Assembly: GCF_004116625.1 (NCBI RefSeq)
Contig: NZ_NXIE01000002.1
Coordinates: 1-64,000 of the forward strand
Length of the DNA stretch: 64,000 nucleotides
DNA from: Halarcobacter mediterraneus
GTDB taxonomy: Bacteria; Campylobacterota; Campylobacteria; Campylobacterales; Arcobacteraceae
Reading direction: 5' to 3'
The position numbers were made by a program, and so were the translations under genes. Shown here one piece after another: positions 57,942-60,697 of this stretch; position 1 is the first letter of the stretch, and each line of letters starts with the position of its first letter. Under the pieces are notes generated by a model. It searched no databases. It saw only the letters and a program-made list of their open reading frames with translations, and had not been told where the DNA came from.

Positions 57942-58820
57942 ATGATAAGCTTTAAAGAGTTAGATATATTTTTTAAATTGTGTGAAGAAACAAACCTATC
58001 AAATATAGCTAAGAAACAGAATATGACTCAAGCTGCAATATCAATAAGTTTAAATAGCTTAGAAAAAAAACTAGGGGAGAAACTCTTTGATAGAATTGGA
58101 AGAAAACTTATTTTAAATGAAAGAGGAAGATTATTCAAAGAAAAAGCATATACTCCTTTTTTAGACTTAATTCATGCAAAAGAGAGTTTCTTTTCTGATA
58201 AACTACAAGGAAATCTAAAAATTGCAGCAAGTAAAACTTTTAATAGTATAAACCTTTCTCAATGTATTTATAAATTTATTTCAAAACATAATATACATAT
58301 TACAAAACACTCAATAAATACTAAAGAAATTTTAGACTCTATTTTAGATTCTTCTATAGATATAGGCTTTGTGGAAAGTGATTTTAATGAGGCAAATATT
58401 ATAAAAGAAAAAGTTGCTGATGACTCTTTAATAATTGTAAGTTCAAATAAAGAATTAACTAAAAAAGAGTATTTTATTGACCAACTTTATAAATATAATT
58501 GGCTTTTAAGAGAAAAAGGTTCTGCTACAAGAGAAGTTTTTCTAAGTAAAGTAAAATATCAAGATGAGCTAAATATTACCATGGAAGTTTCAAACTTTGA
58601 AGAGATAAAAAATATATTACTTGAAAATAAAGAAACAATAACTTGTATTTCTAAGCTTGCAGTTAAAAAAGAGCTTGAAGAAAAGAGTTTATTTGAAATC
58701 AAAATAAAAAACTTGAAATTTGATAGAGAATTATTTATGGTTTATCATAAAAACAAATATAAAAGTAAACTTTTTTTAGAGTTTACTAAGTATATAAAAA
58801 AGTGTTTTTTCAACAATTAA
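57942..58820 (+). CDS. LysR-family transcriptional regulator
   Basis: A 292-residue regulator with an N-terminal winged helix ('LCEETNLSNIAKKQNMTQAA', 'LEKKLGEKLFDRIGRKLI') and a substrate-binding effector domain (about 90-290, 'GNLKIAASKTFNSI', 'SSIDIGFVESDF'). Its divergent position to yeiH suggests that it is the YeiE/CysL-type regulator of that exporter. Ribosome site AAGGAA precedes the ATG. Confidence 0.92.
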   Translation: MISFKELDIFFKLCEETNLSNIAKKQNMTQAAISISLNSLEKKLGEKLFDRIGRKLILNERGRLFKEKAYTPFLDLIHAKESFFSDKLQGNLKIAASKTFNSINLSQCIYKFISKHNIHITKHSINTKEILDSILDSSIDIGFVESDFNEANIIKEKVADDSLIIVSSNKELTKKEYFIDQLYKYNWLLREKGSATREVFLSKVKYQDELNITMEVSNFEEIKNILLENKETITCISKLAVKKELEEKSLFEIKIKNLKFDRELFMVYHKNKYKSKLFLEFTKYIKKCFFNN

Positions 58821-58904: not shown

Positions 58905-59117
58905 ATGACATTTATTCCAACATCAATTGAACTTTTACAAGCAATAAAAGCTAATAATGCAACAAAAGCTGAAGAGGTTATTTTATACTCTGACACAAGA
59001 AGAGATTTAATAATCGAACATACAACAGAACATGGAAGAGATTCATTGCTAAATCTTTTACCACAATTTAAAAGTCAAGGTCTTGTTTTCAATATAAAAA
59101 CATTATTAGACATTTAA
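58905..59117 (+). CDS. Small hypothetical protein
   Basis: 70 residues, unrecognised. Soluble and helical ('SIELLQAIKANNATKAEEVI', 'HGRDSLLNLLPQFKSQGLVF'). Ribosome site AAAAGGA, 6 bases before the ATG, is good. The upstream gap carries a GTTAC/GTAAC hairpin that could end the LysR transcript. The pattern 'ANNATKAEEVILYSDTRRDL' is loosely ankyrin-like, but too short to claim. Confidence 0.6.
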   Translation: MTFIPTSIELLQAIKANNATKAEEVILYSDTRRDLIIEHTTEHGRDSLLNLLPQFKSQGLVFNIKTLLDI

Positions 59118-59160: not shown

Positions 59161-60246
59161 TTATATACGCTCAATCCACAGTTCTAAGCTTCTATCAGGG
59201 ATAAAATACTTATCGGCATCTTTATCAATAAACTCTTTTGCAAAAAGTGAATTTATAGATGACTGTAAGGTTTGTTTCTTTATATTATATTCACTTAAAA
59301 CTTCACTGACAAAAAAACCACTTTTGTATTTGCCAACAATTTTTAAAGCAATTTTTTGATTGTTATTTAAACTATCATAAATAATTCTAAAACTTGCCTC
59401 TTTTGATGATATTATTTCATTTAAAAGTTCATCAATATTTTCTTCAGTAATATTCTGAACCTTATAAACATATAATAAATGTAATAAATTTTGAATAAGT
59501 TTTGTTTCTCCATTAGCTTTTTCATAAATATAGTTTATATTTTCTTTAGAAACTTTCAAATACTTTTTTGAATAGTCATAAATATCTGCTACTTTTAAAG
59601 CTTGTAATTCAAAATGATTTGCTAACTCATATAATGGAGCCTTATATTCAAATAAAGATGTCAAAAGATGTCTTTTGGAACCTAAGAATATATAAGAAAT
59701 ATTTTTTCTATTTTGAATAAAAGTTCTAAGATAAGCATCTAATTTTATATCTTTTATAGTTGCAACTTGTTGAAACTCATCTATTGCTAAAACAATTTGT
59801 TTAGTTTTTGCTAATTCATTTAAAGAGTTAAAAAAGTCTTCCATCATCTGTTCAAAACTAAGAGTTGCAATAACTGGCTTTATGCTATATTTTAAAGTAG
59901 TTGGATCAATAGTAGGTTCTACTCTTACTCTTTTAAATAAAGATGTCAAAGTTTTAATAGCAGCTTTTAAATCACTTTCTTGAGAGTTTGATAAAGCTTT
60001 TAGTAAAGAATAAGCAAAGTCTTCCTTTGAAGTCATATCAAAAATATCAACATAAATACAAAGATAGTCTTTAAAATGTTTTTCTATAAAATTACTAATT
60101 AGAGAGCTTTTTCCCATACGCCTTTTTGAGTGAATCAAAATATTGTTTGAGTACTTTACAGTTTTTTCTAATTCTTTTAATTCTTTATCTCTTCCAAAGA
60201 AGCACTTGTTATCTGAAATTTTATCATAAGGAAAAGGAGAGAACAT
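59161..60246 (-). CDS. AAA-family ATPase (ATPase_2 type) with C-terminal winged helix
   Basis: 361 residues. Entry motif 'FFGRDKELKELEKTV', Walker A 'HSKRRMGKSSLI' (Lys46), Walker B 'QIVLAIDEFQQ' (Asp156, Glu157), sensor 'ISYIFLGSKRHLL', helical lid (about 215-275), and a C-terminal winged helix (about 290-360, 'KIALKIVGKYKSGFFVSEVL', 'TLQSSINSLFAKEFI'). This is the archaeal-type ATPase_2/STAND-related architecture, of unknown function. Its promoter is bracketed by two related inverted repeats. Confidence 0.85.
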   Translation of the reverse strand: MFSPFPYDKISDNKCFFGRDKELKELEKTVKYSNNILIHSKRRMGKSSLISNFIEKHFKDYLCIYVDIFDMTSKEDFAYSLLKALSNSQESDLKAAIKTLTSLFKRVRVEPTIDPTTLKYSIKPVIATLSFEQMMEDFFNSLNELAKTKQIVLAIDEFQQVATIKDIKLDAYLRTFIQNRKNISYIFLGSKRHLLTSLFEYKAPLYELANHFELQALKVADIYDYSKKYLKVSKENINYIYEKANGETKLIQNLLHLLYVYKVQNITEENIDELLNEIISSKEASFRIIYDSLNNNQKIALKIVGKYKSGFFVSEVLSEYNIKKQTLQSSINSLFAKEFIDKDADKYFIPDRSLELWIERI

Positions 60247-60257
60247 TATAAAACCTT

Positions 60258-60277
60258 AGTATTTATTTTTAGATACT
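60258..60277. promoter_or_regulatory. Inverted repeat downstream of the ATPase promoter
   Basis: AGTATTTA (60258-60265), TTTT, TAGATACT (60270-60277), one mismatch. It lies between the -10 and the start codon, and shares its half-site with the longer repeat at 60309-60344. Confidence 0.5.
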
Positions 60278-60280
60278 TCT

Positions 60281-60309
60281 AGTATAGTTAAATTATTTTA
60301 CAAAGTCAA
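60281..60309 (-). promoter_or_regulatory. Promoter of the AAA ATPase gene
   Basis: Minus-strand TTGACT (60304-60309), 17-base spacer, TATACT (60281-60286), 35 bases before the ATG at 60246. Both hexamers match consensus at 5 of 6 positions. It is flanked on both sides by inverted repeats containing AGTATTTA. Confidence 0.7.
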
Positions 60310-60344
60310 TACCAAAAGTATTTAATAATAAATACTTTTGGTAT
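60309..60344. promoter_or_regulatory. Perfect 16-base inverted repeat at the ATPase -35
   Basis: Left arm ATACCAAAAGTATTTA (60309-60324), four-base loop, right arm 60329-60344, a perfect reverse complement. It abuts the -35 box of the ATPase promoter and also lies 5 bases past the end of the AhpD-like gene. It can be an operator, a terminator of that gene, or both. A TTTTT tract follows on the plus strand. Confidence 0.65.
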
Positions 60345-60349
60345 TTTTA

Positions 60350-60697
60350 TTATATACCTTTTTCTTGAAATTGACTAAGTGCTTGCATTGCCTCAATTCC
60401 ATAAACCACTGAAGGACCACCACCCATAAGAATAGAAACAGAAACTGTTTCAGCAATTTCTTCTTTACTAGCTCCTGCTTTCATTGCATCATGCACGTGA
60501 AATGATATGCAACCATCACATCTTACTGTTATAGCAATACCTAAAGCTATTAACTCTTTTGTTTTAGAATCTAAGGCATTTGATTTTAAACTAGCTCCAT
60601 GTAAAGACTGAAAACCTTGCATAACTTCAGGCATTTCTAGACCTAATTTTTTCATCCAGCTTGTTAATTCTTCGTAATGTTCAGGGAAATTTTTCAT
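60350..60697 (-). CDS. AhpD-like carboxymuconolactone decarboxylase-family protein
   Basis: A 115-residue alkylhydroperoxidase-fold protein with the redox motif Cys60-Asp-Gly-Cys63 and His67 in 'VRCDGCISFHVHDAMKAGAS'. 'DSKTKELIALGIAI' and 'GGGPSVVYGIEAMQAL' complete the pattern. It is a likely thiol peroxidase or disulfide reductase. Single gene with the inverted repeat 60309-60344 just downstream. Confidence 0.9.
   Translation of the reverse strand: MKNFPEHYEELTSWMKKLGLEMPEVMQGFQSLHGASLKSNALDSKTKELIALGIAITVRCDGCISFHVHDAMKAGASKEEIAETVSVSILMGGGPSVVYGIEAMQALSQFQEKGI

Follow-up and report, generated by a model that had tools for sequence, protein, structure and literature searches.

We report here that a gene in a 64,000-nucleotide stretch of Halarcobacter mediterraneus DNA (the window), coding for an ATPase_2-type NTPase, possesses a conserved and specific palindromic operator of its own, present twice at its own promoter. 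We propose, with a probability of roughly three in four, that this gene encodes a solitary, patchily distributed and autoregulated NTPase, which binds its two operators through its predicted winged helix and thereby shuts or throttles its own promoter. The features of the locus are collected in Table 1.

Table 1 Features of the ATPase gene and its promoter region in the window.
Feature	Position	Strand	Remark
ATPase_2-type NTPase with predicted C-terminal winged helix, 361 aa	59161..60246	-	single open frame
Predicted recognition helix KKQTLQSSINSLFAKE, residues 323-338	59233..59280	-	from alignment and co-variation with operator type
Walker B codons, residues D156 E157	59776..59781	-	invariant in 34 aligned homologs
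Walker A codons, residues G45 K46	60109..60114	-	invariant in 34 aligned homologs
Proximal operator AGTATCTAAAAATAAATACT	60258..60277	-	covers the predicted transcription start; lies between -10 and ATG
-10 hexamer TATACT	60281..60286	-	consensus match
-35 hexamer TTGACT (spacer 17)	60304..60309	-	consensus match
Extended perfect palindrome, 17-bp arms, loop 4	60308..60345	.	encloses the distal operator
Distal operator core AGTATTTATTATTAAATACT	60317..60336	-	pattern AGTATTTA-N4-TAAATACT; upstream of -35

Two related palindromes bracket the ATPase promoter

The promoter TTGACT-17-TATACT is near consensus (10/12) and is flanked by a distal and a proximal operator that lie 59 bp apart, measured from start to start. 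An earlier note on this DNA had described the distal element as a perfect 16-base repeat abutting the -35. The repeat is indeed perfect, its two arms (60308-60324 and 60329-60345) being 100% complementary, and it does lie beside the -35; the arms, however, comprise 17 and not 16 bases, and two of these overlap TTGACT (60309-60304), so that the repeat does not merely abut it. The second, related repeat was found as described, at 60258-60277 between TATACT (60286-60281) and the ATG of the ATPase gene at 60246. Read on the minus strand, this proximal operator is AGTATCTA AAAA TAAATACT and deviates by one mismatch from the pattern AGTATTTA-N4-TAAATACT. Throughout the whole 2.83-Mb genome, only the two ATPase-promoter sites match this pattern with no or one mismatch, while up to two mismatches yield 12 places for the pattern and 14 for its reversed control. 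Within the window, allowing up to three mismatches gave 11 matches against 4.3 expected, the two promoter sites being the best. The paired palindromes at the ATPase promoter are thus more than chance. The arms of the long repeat outside the 20-bp core are absent at the closest homologs (L012 and L013), and judging from this comparison the outer arms may be a local extra.

The long repeat is located directly 3' of the stop codon of an AhpD-like gene (60350-60697, minus strand) and folds well as RNA (-19.6 kcal/mol), which would suit a terminator of that gene, the short repeat then being a chance occurrence. The terminator-like run of T, however, is present on the plus strand only, i.e., on the strand opposite the AhpD-like gene, which speaks against a terminator of that gene. 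Moreover, the inner 20 bp recur at homologs, and the short palindrome is conserved equally well. None of the 15 other genomes of the genus yields a match to the AhpD-like gene at E ≤ 1e-20; three of them (G054, G055 and G058) carry the ATPase with its operators. The suggestion that the long repeat acts only as a terminator of the AhpD-like gene is contradicted by these observations, and we regard this reading as extremely unlikely. As a separate observation, 60308-60345 read on the plus strand, together with the TTTATTATAT that comes after it, looks like an intrinsic terminator of antisense (plus-strand) transcription. We also considered and rejected control through an RNA hairpin: the proximal site barely folds (-1.3 kcal/mol, z 0.45), and the distal site lies outside the transcript from the ATPase promoter and should therefore act as DNA.

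The operator pair is conserved among close homologs of the ATPase

At E ≤ 1e-20, 29 of the 104 genomes of the family contain homologs of the ATPase; in a sample of 397 genomes from the phylum, 22 do so at E ≤ 1e-15. Among the 37 places found at E ≤ 1e-20, seven had no assigned locus and were left out, one of which re-entered as L052. Upstream regions were readable for 38 of 42 loci, the remaining four (L032, L037, L041 and L046) having no start codon found. Of the readable loci, 22 with at least 47% identity constitute the close set, and the other 16 show identities of 44% or less. When scored with leave-clade-out matrices, the upstream regions of all 22 close homologs, spanning 47-100% identity, exceeded every one of 110 control upstream regions. 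A search of the homologous promoters for the repeat, in the spirit of the alignment that the earlier note had proposed, finds the pair kept in 22/22 cases, and a lack of conservation, which that note had named as an argument against its reading, is not what we observe. In an initial test with the full matrix, one of 115 controls had reached a score of 37.6, equal to or above many true cases. The 110 are what remained after removal of five controls that overlapped an ATPase promoter, presumably including the one that scored 37.6. A preceding blind score for two similar palindromes per upstream region had weak power, with many cases scoring about as high as shuffles in this AT-rich DNA, and was superseded by the matrix and spacing tests.

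The spacing of the two sites is likewise constrained. With distances of 20-100 bp allowed (81 choices), a start-to-start spacing of 59-61 bp was picked in 20 of the 22 close homologs, the exceptions being L021 with 37 bp and L040 with an irregular arrangement. Pairwise identity across 18 promoters (the 22 without L016, L028, L021 and L040) amounts to 72% within both operators. By comparison, it is 35% for the distal flank, 45% each for the spacer and for the bases following the proximal site, and 50-55% for the segments adjoining and covering the -35 and -10. The operator matrix found no match in any of the 16 readable homologs of 44% identity or less.

Between the two sites, the 20 regularly spaced loci display a -35 of the type TTGAC in 14 cases and TTGAT in one, and neither type in five (L019, L020, L023, L025 and L028). 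Such loci could point to activator help, and hence to a dual control in which the distal site would activate at a low level of the ATPase and the proximal site would repress at a high level; a site upstream of the -35 could activate. The two-site arrangement retained in 20 of 22 close homologs would agree with this, as would the archaeal regulator Orc1-2, which is reported to bind its own promoter and to control induced genes (PMC9738581). However, the near-consensus promoter of the window (10/12) has little need of an activator, and we consider dual control rather unlikely.

The operator pair is specific to the ATPase gene

A search of the 104 genomes for the operator pair alone, performed without the protein, gave hits in 17 genomes, compared to none for the reversed pattern. 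Fifteen of these hits precede an intact homolog, one (in G103) is a remnant and one (in G052) appears chance-like. One base required by the pair pattern is different in the distal core of the window, whose own pair is therefore missed. At the remnant (L106; G103:C25:382-459) the operator pair has been kept, while the -35 is changed and nearly the whole ATPase gene is lost. It is followed by 22 bp matching the recognition-helix codons of the homologous gene in G102, and the sequence thereafter is that of the next-but-one G102 gene, which identifies the G103 pair as the remnant of a deletion.

We further inspected single sites in 10 genomes with a stricter pattern, GTATYTAAAAHYARATAC. Its exact matches, 8 in total, are all located at an ATPase promoter, and the same holds for 10 of the 20 sites with one mismatch; the 10 one-mismatch sites elsewhere do not rise above the 22 found with the reversed control. 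When the single-site pattern was loosened and one mismatch allowed, it exceeded its reversed control, itself imperfect as a control, in 10/10 genomes by up to about twofold, and weak operator sites may exist elsewhere in these genomes. A regulon was considered and rejected: outside the ATPase promoters, no close site turned up in the window's genome and no exact one in the 10 genomes; no strong regulon is visible.

Operator and predicted winged helix vary together

The 361-residue protein matches PF01637 (ATPase_2) with an E-value of 8.9e-14 and 52.3 bits against a curated cut-off of 33.2, in line with the assignment in the earlier note. AAA_22 (39.6 vs 27) and AAA_14 (31.8 vs 27) are likewise above their cut-offs, while the protein falls below those of the novel STAND NTPases nSTAND1 (25.9 vs 27.1) and nSTAND6 (25.5 vs 27.7). 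It contains the GK and DE hallmarks of ATPase_2 proteins, G45/K46 and D156/E157, which we take to be the Walker A and Walker B motifs. The closest solved structure is PDB 2fna (E 1.1e-6 with the single ATPase protein), that of SSO1545 (PMC5760070). A profile of 34 homologs aligns to this structure at E 1.5e-17 over positions 12-353, the C-terminal part included. A structure model of the ATPase itself is poor (pLDDT 46), and with this low-confidence model underneath, the assignment of KKQTLQSSINSLFAKE as recognition helix is provisional. The ratio dN/dS ranges from 0.06 to 0.13 across 8 homolog pairs, roughly estimated as dS exceeds 1 in 5 of the 8, which places the protein under purifying selection.

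Several alternative identities were considered and rejected. A TniB-type transposition ATPase is disfavored by a score of 17.2 against a cut-off of 22.4 and by the lack of a constant partner gene, a known anti-phage defense protein by the absence of any PADLOC 2023 family at E ≤ 0.1, and a prophage gene by PHROGs, where one family only was found (E 0.063). A pattern search of viral contigs gave no relative of the ATPase, and two unannotated phage records contain proteins about 25% identical to it. Within its own genome, the ATPase matches only itself at E ≤ 1e-3.

Next, the sequence of the predicted helix was compared to that of the operators. The last base of the site is T or C in 23 of 24 cases at 12 aligned loci with the helix NIKKQTLQS, and A in 11 of 12 cases at the 6 loci whose helix is ISRPSMQSS or ISRASMQSS. 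L052, L021 and L040 combine other helices with other operator arms, and L043, which has the NIKKQTLQS type, has a poor distal site. Moreover, the two operators of one locus share more bases with each other (15.55 of 20) than operators from separate loci do (14.1), a likeness reached by none of 20,000 permutations over 20 loci uncorrected for relatedness (the close set without L016 and L028).

Beyond the close set, other palindromes are found. ATTATGT-N5-ACATAAT precedes the ATG of six distant homologs that are mutually 54-76% identical: it is whole in L036, L048 and L049, lacks the outermost pair in L035 and L039, and is broken in L047. It is absent from L038, which is 45-52% identical to this group. 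TGGTAT-N9-ATACCA was read from the sequence upstream of L030, L044 and L045. At L051 (27% identity), two identical AT-rich ATCTATAAATTTAATAGAT palindromes flank TTGACA-17-TATAAT, reproducing the layout of the window with a different palindrome sequence. A Vibrio plasmid homolog of 32% identity (L107) carries AGTATTTA-AAC-TAAATACT upstream, close after TTGACA, and KPTLQS in the same helix; in a Marinomonas plasmid homolog, GTATC/GATAC palindromes flank a possible promoter, as judged by eye. No shared palindrome was found upstream of L029, L031, L033, L034 and L038. Upstream of position 3986 in L107 we also noted half sites TAAATACT at -57, -43 and -29, a 14-bp spacing that is unlike the two-palindrome layout of the window.

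The binder of the operators is, by our best inference from these sequences, the ATPase itself. One might instead propose that an unrelated host regulator recognizes the palindromes and the ATPase gene is merely a target, given that weak extra sites may exist; a LysR-type gene is located nearby (57942-58820). However, the operators accompany the gene in a number of genera and change along with the predicted winged helix that it encodes, no neighbor gene is constant, and other close or exact sites are missing from the genomes searched above. We thus judge a host regulator to be very unlikely.

The ATPase gene is solitary and patchily distributed

We examined 22 stretches around homologs, reaching up to about 5.5 kb on each side, some of them short, and found no constant neighbor. 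The most frequent neighbors are kinase- and regulator-like proteins that form one similarity cluster; they are present in 11 of the 22 stretches, at varying places. Neighbors are common to L064 and L066, among L060, L061 and L071, and within the genus, where the gene lies near purH, mgsA or a gene for a 70-residue protein in three different arrangements in G055, G054 and the window (names assigned by eye). Neighbor identities were drawn from 20 hand-picked proteins and imply no rate: they include the mobile or conflict-related HipA, YoeB, a Tn3 transposase, an integrase, an HNH protein and another transposase, as well as an ordinary amino-acid permease and a chemotaxis receptor. As for the defense or mobile genes that the earlier note had proposed looking for, mobile or conflict genes are present at some homologs, while other surroundings are ordinary and none is constant.

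The gene was found in only 4 of 16 genomes of the genus. In G057, mgsA, a gene of the 70-residue type and a membrane-type gene follow in a row, and in G054 the ATPase gene together with both operators lies between the latter two; the gene is missing between the same neighbors in G057, with no exact junction. Similarly, G096 lacks the gene at the site occupied in G092 and rejoins the G092 sequence only beyond the next, kinase-like gene. Copies from another family (G413 and G428) are 68% and 64% identical, compared to 49% for G058 of the same genus. This, together with the occurrence in 4/16 genomes, points to horizontal movement of the gene, as far as sequence comparison can tell. Neither element ends nor mobile machinery were found around the ATPase gene. 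The gene is solitary and patchily distributed, which fits its earlier placement in an accessory region.

Two further observations concern the surroundings. The 70-residue protein of the window (58905-59117, plus strand) is without Pfam match and convergent with the ATPase gene; relatives of 54-66% identity are neighbors of mgsA in G054, G057, G067 and G068, all four belonging to the genus. At L055 (16669-18044), a YoeB toxin gene and a small neighbor are found just downstream of an intact ATPase, along with a 72-residue fragment that looks like the C-terminal end of a second copy of the ATPase.

Some homologs are plasmid-borne, and one copy in G006 resides on a contig of 189,043 bp. Furthermore, an NTPase with a winged helix resembles Orc1/Cdc6, and SSO1545 has been placed in one structural family with Orc1/Cdc6 (PMC4599002). 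Hence, the paired sites might constitute a replication-origin or partition-like site serving an Orc- or ParA-like function, with autoregulation as a by-product. However, several copies are found on contigs of 2-3 Mb (G054, G083, G094 and G102), there are just two sites and these bracket a promoter, and no constant partner gene was found in the 22 stretches, which renders an origin or partition site highly improbable.

A model for autoregulation by the ATPase

We therefore return to autoregulation. That the control is self-imposed, as the earlier note had suggested, is supported by operators that are conserved, regularly spaced, tied to the gene and variable with its predicted winged helix. In our model, the predicted C-terminal winged helix of the ATPase would bind both copies of its palindromic operator, about 60 bp apart, one upstream of the -35 and the other over the predicted transcription start. 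Since the proximal site covers this predicted start, the control is inferred to be repression: its occupation would block RNA polymerase there, while the distal site lies outside the promoter. With both operators bound, the promoter would be enclosed and shut or throttled, and the protein level would stay low. A simple loop is not favored, as 59-61 bp do not correspond to a whole number of helical turns. The NTPase module probably renders binding or oligomerization dependent on ATP or ADP. By analogy to known systems, the nucleotide state may thus set operator binding, and a signal altering this state would release the promoter.

More speculatively, and doubtful at present, the ATPase could belong to a family that extends across phyla, its members being ATP-switch proteins encoded by single genes that spread horizontally and have private operators; the scarce ATPase would then be the effector of an undescribed defense or stress response. 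If true, the operator of each family member would co-evolve with its winged helix, and its own promoter would be its only strong DNA target. Judging from sequence, one branch of ATPase_2 proteins now has a concrete candidate DNA site. The proposed rule relating helix residues to operator bases comes with natural variants that are suited to swap experiments, and the system allows asking whether ATP or ADP sets DNA binding and which signal frees the promoter.

Comparison to known systems

To our knowledge, neither a DNA target nor a role has been assigned to ATPase_2 proteins of this type. The literature covered, consisting of titles and abstracts with few subscription papers, describes no operator or autoregulation for an ATPase_2 protein. 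SSO1545 (PDB 2fna), an archaeal AAA+ ATPase, resembles the window's ATPase over most of its length, and we know of no cognate DNA site for it; the present finding links a promoter operator to SSO1545 relatives. IniR is similar in being a transcription regulator with an ATPase domain predicted to be SSO1545-like, but comprises 818 residues with a MalT-like domain and another DNA-binding domain and acts on iniBAC (PMC5760070).

The archaeal DNA-damage regulator Orc1-2 is comparable as an AAA+ ATPase with a winged helix that binds its own promoter; its binding is strong with ATP, and a Walker B mutant was not viable (PMC9738581). Orc1-2, however, recognizes a short hexamer in several promoters, as opposed to the pair of long palindromes in the window, where strong sites are seen only at the own promoter. 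Finally, the plasmid protein RepA of the ParA family is an ATPase that represses its own operon with ADP at imperfect palindromes, which are specific to each copy (PMC4492784). According to this source, RepA belongs to the ParA family and is encoded in an operon with repB and repC, whereas the window harbors a single gene for an ATPase_2 protein.
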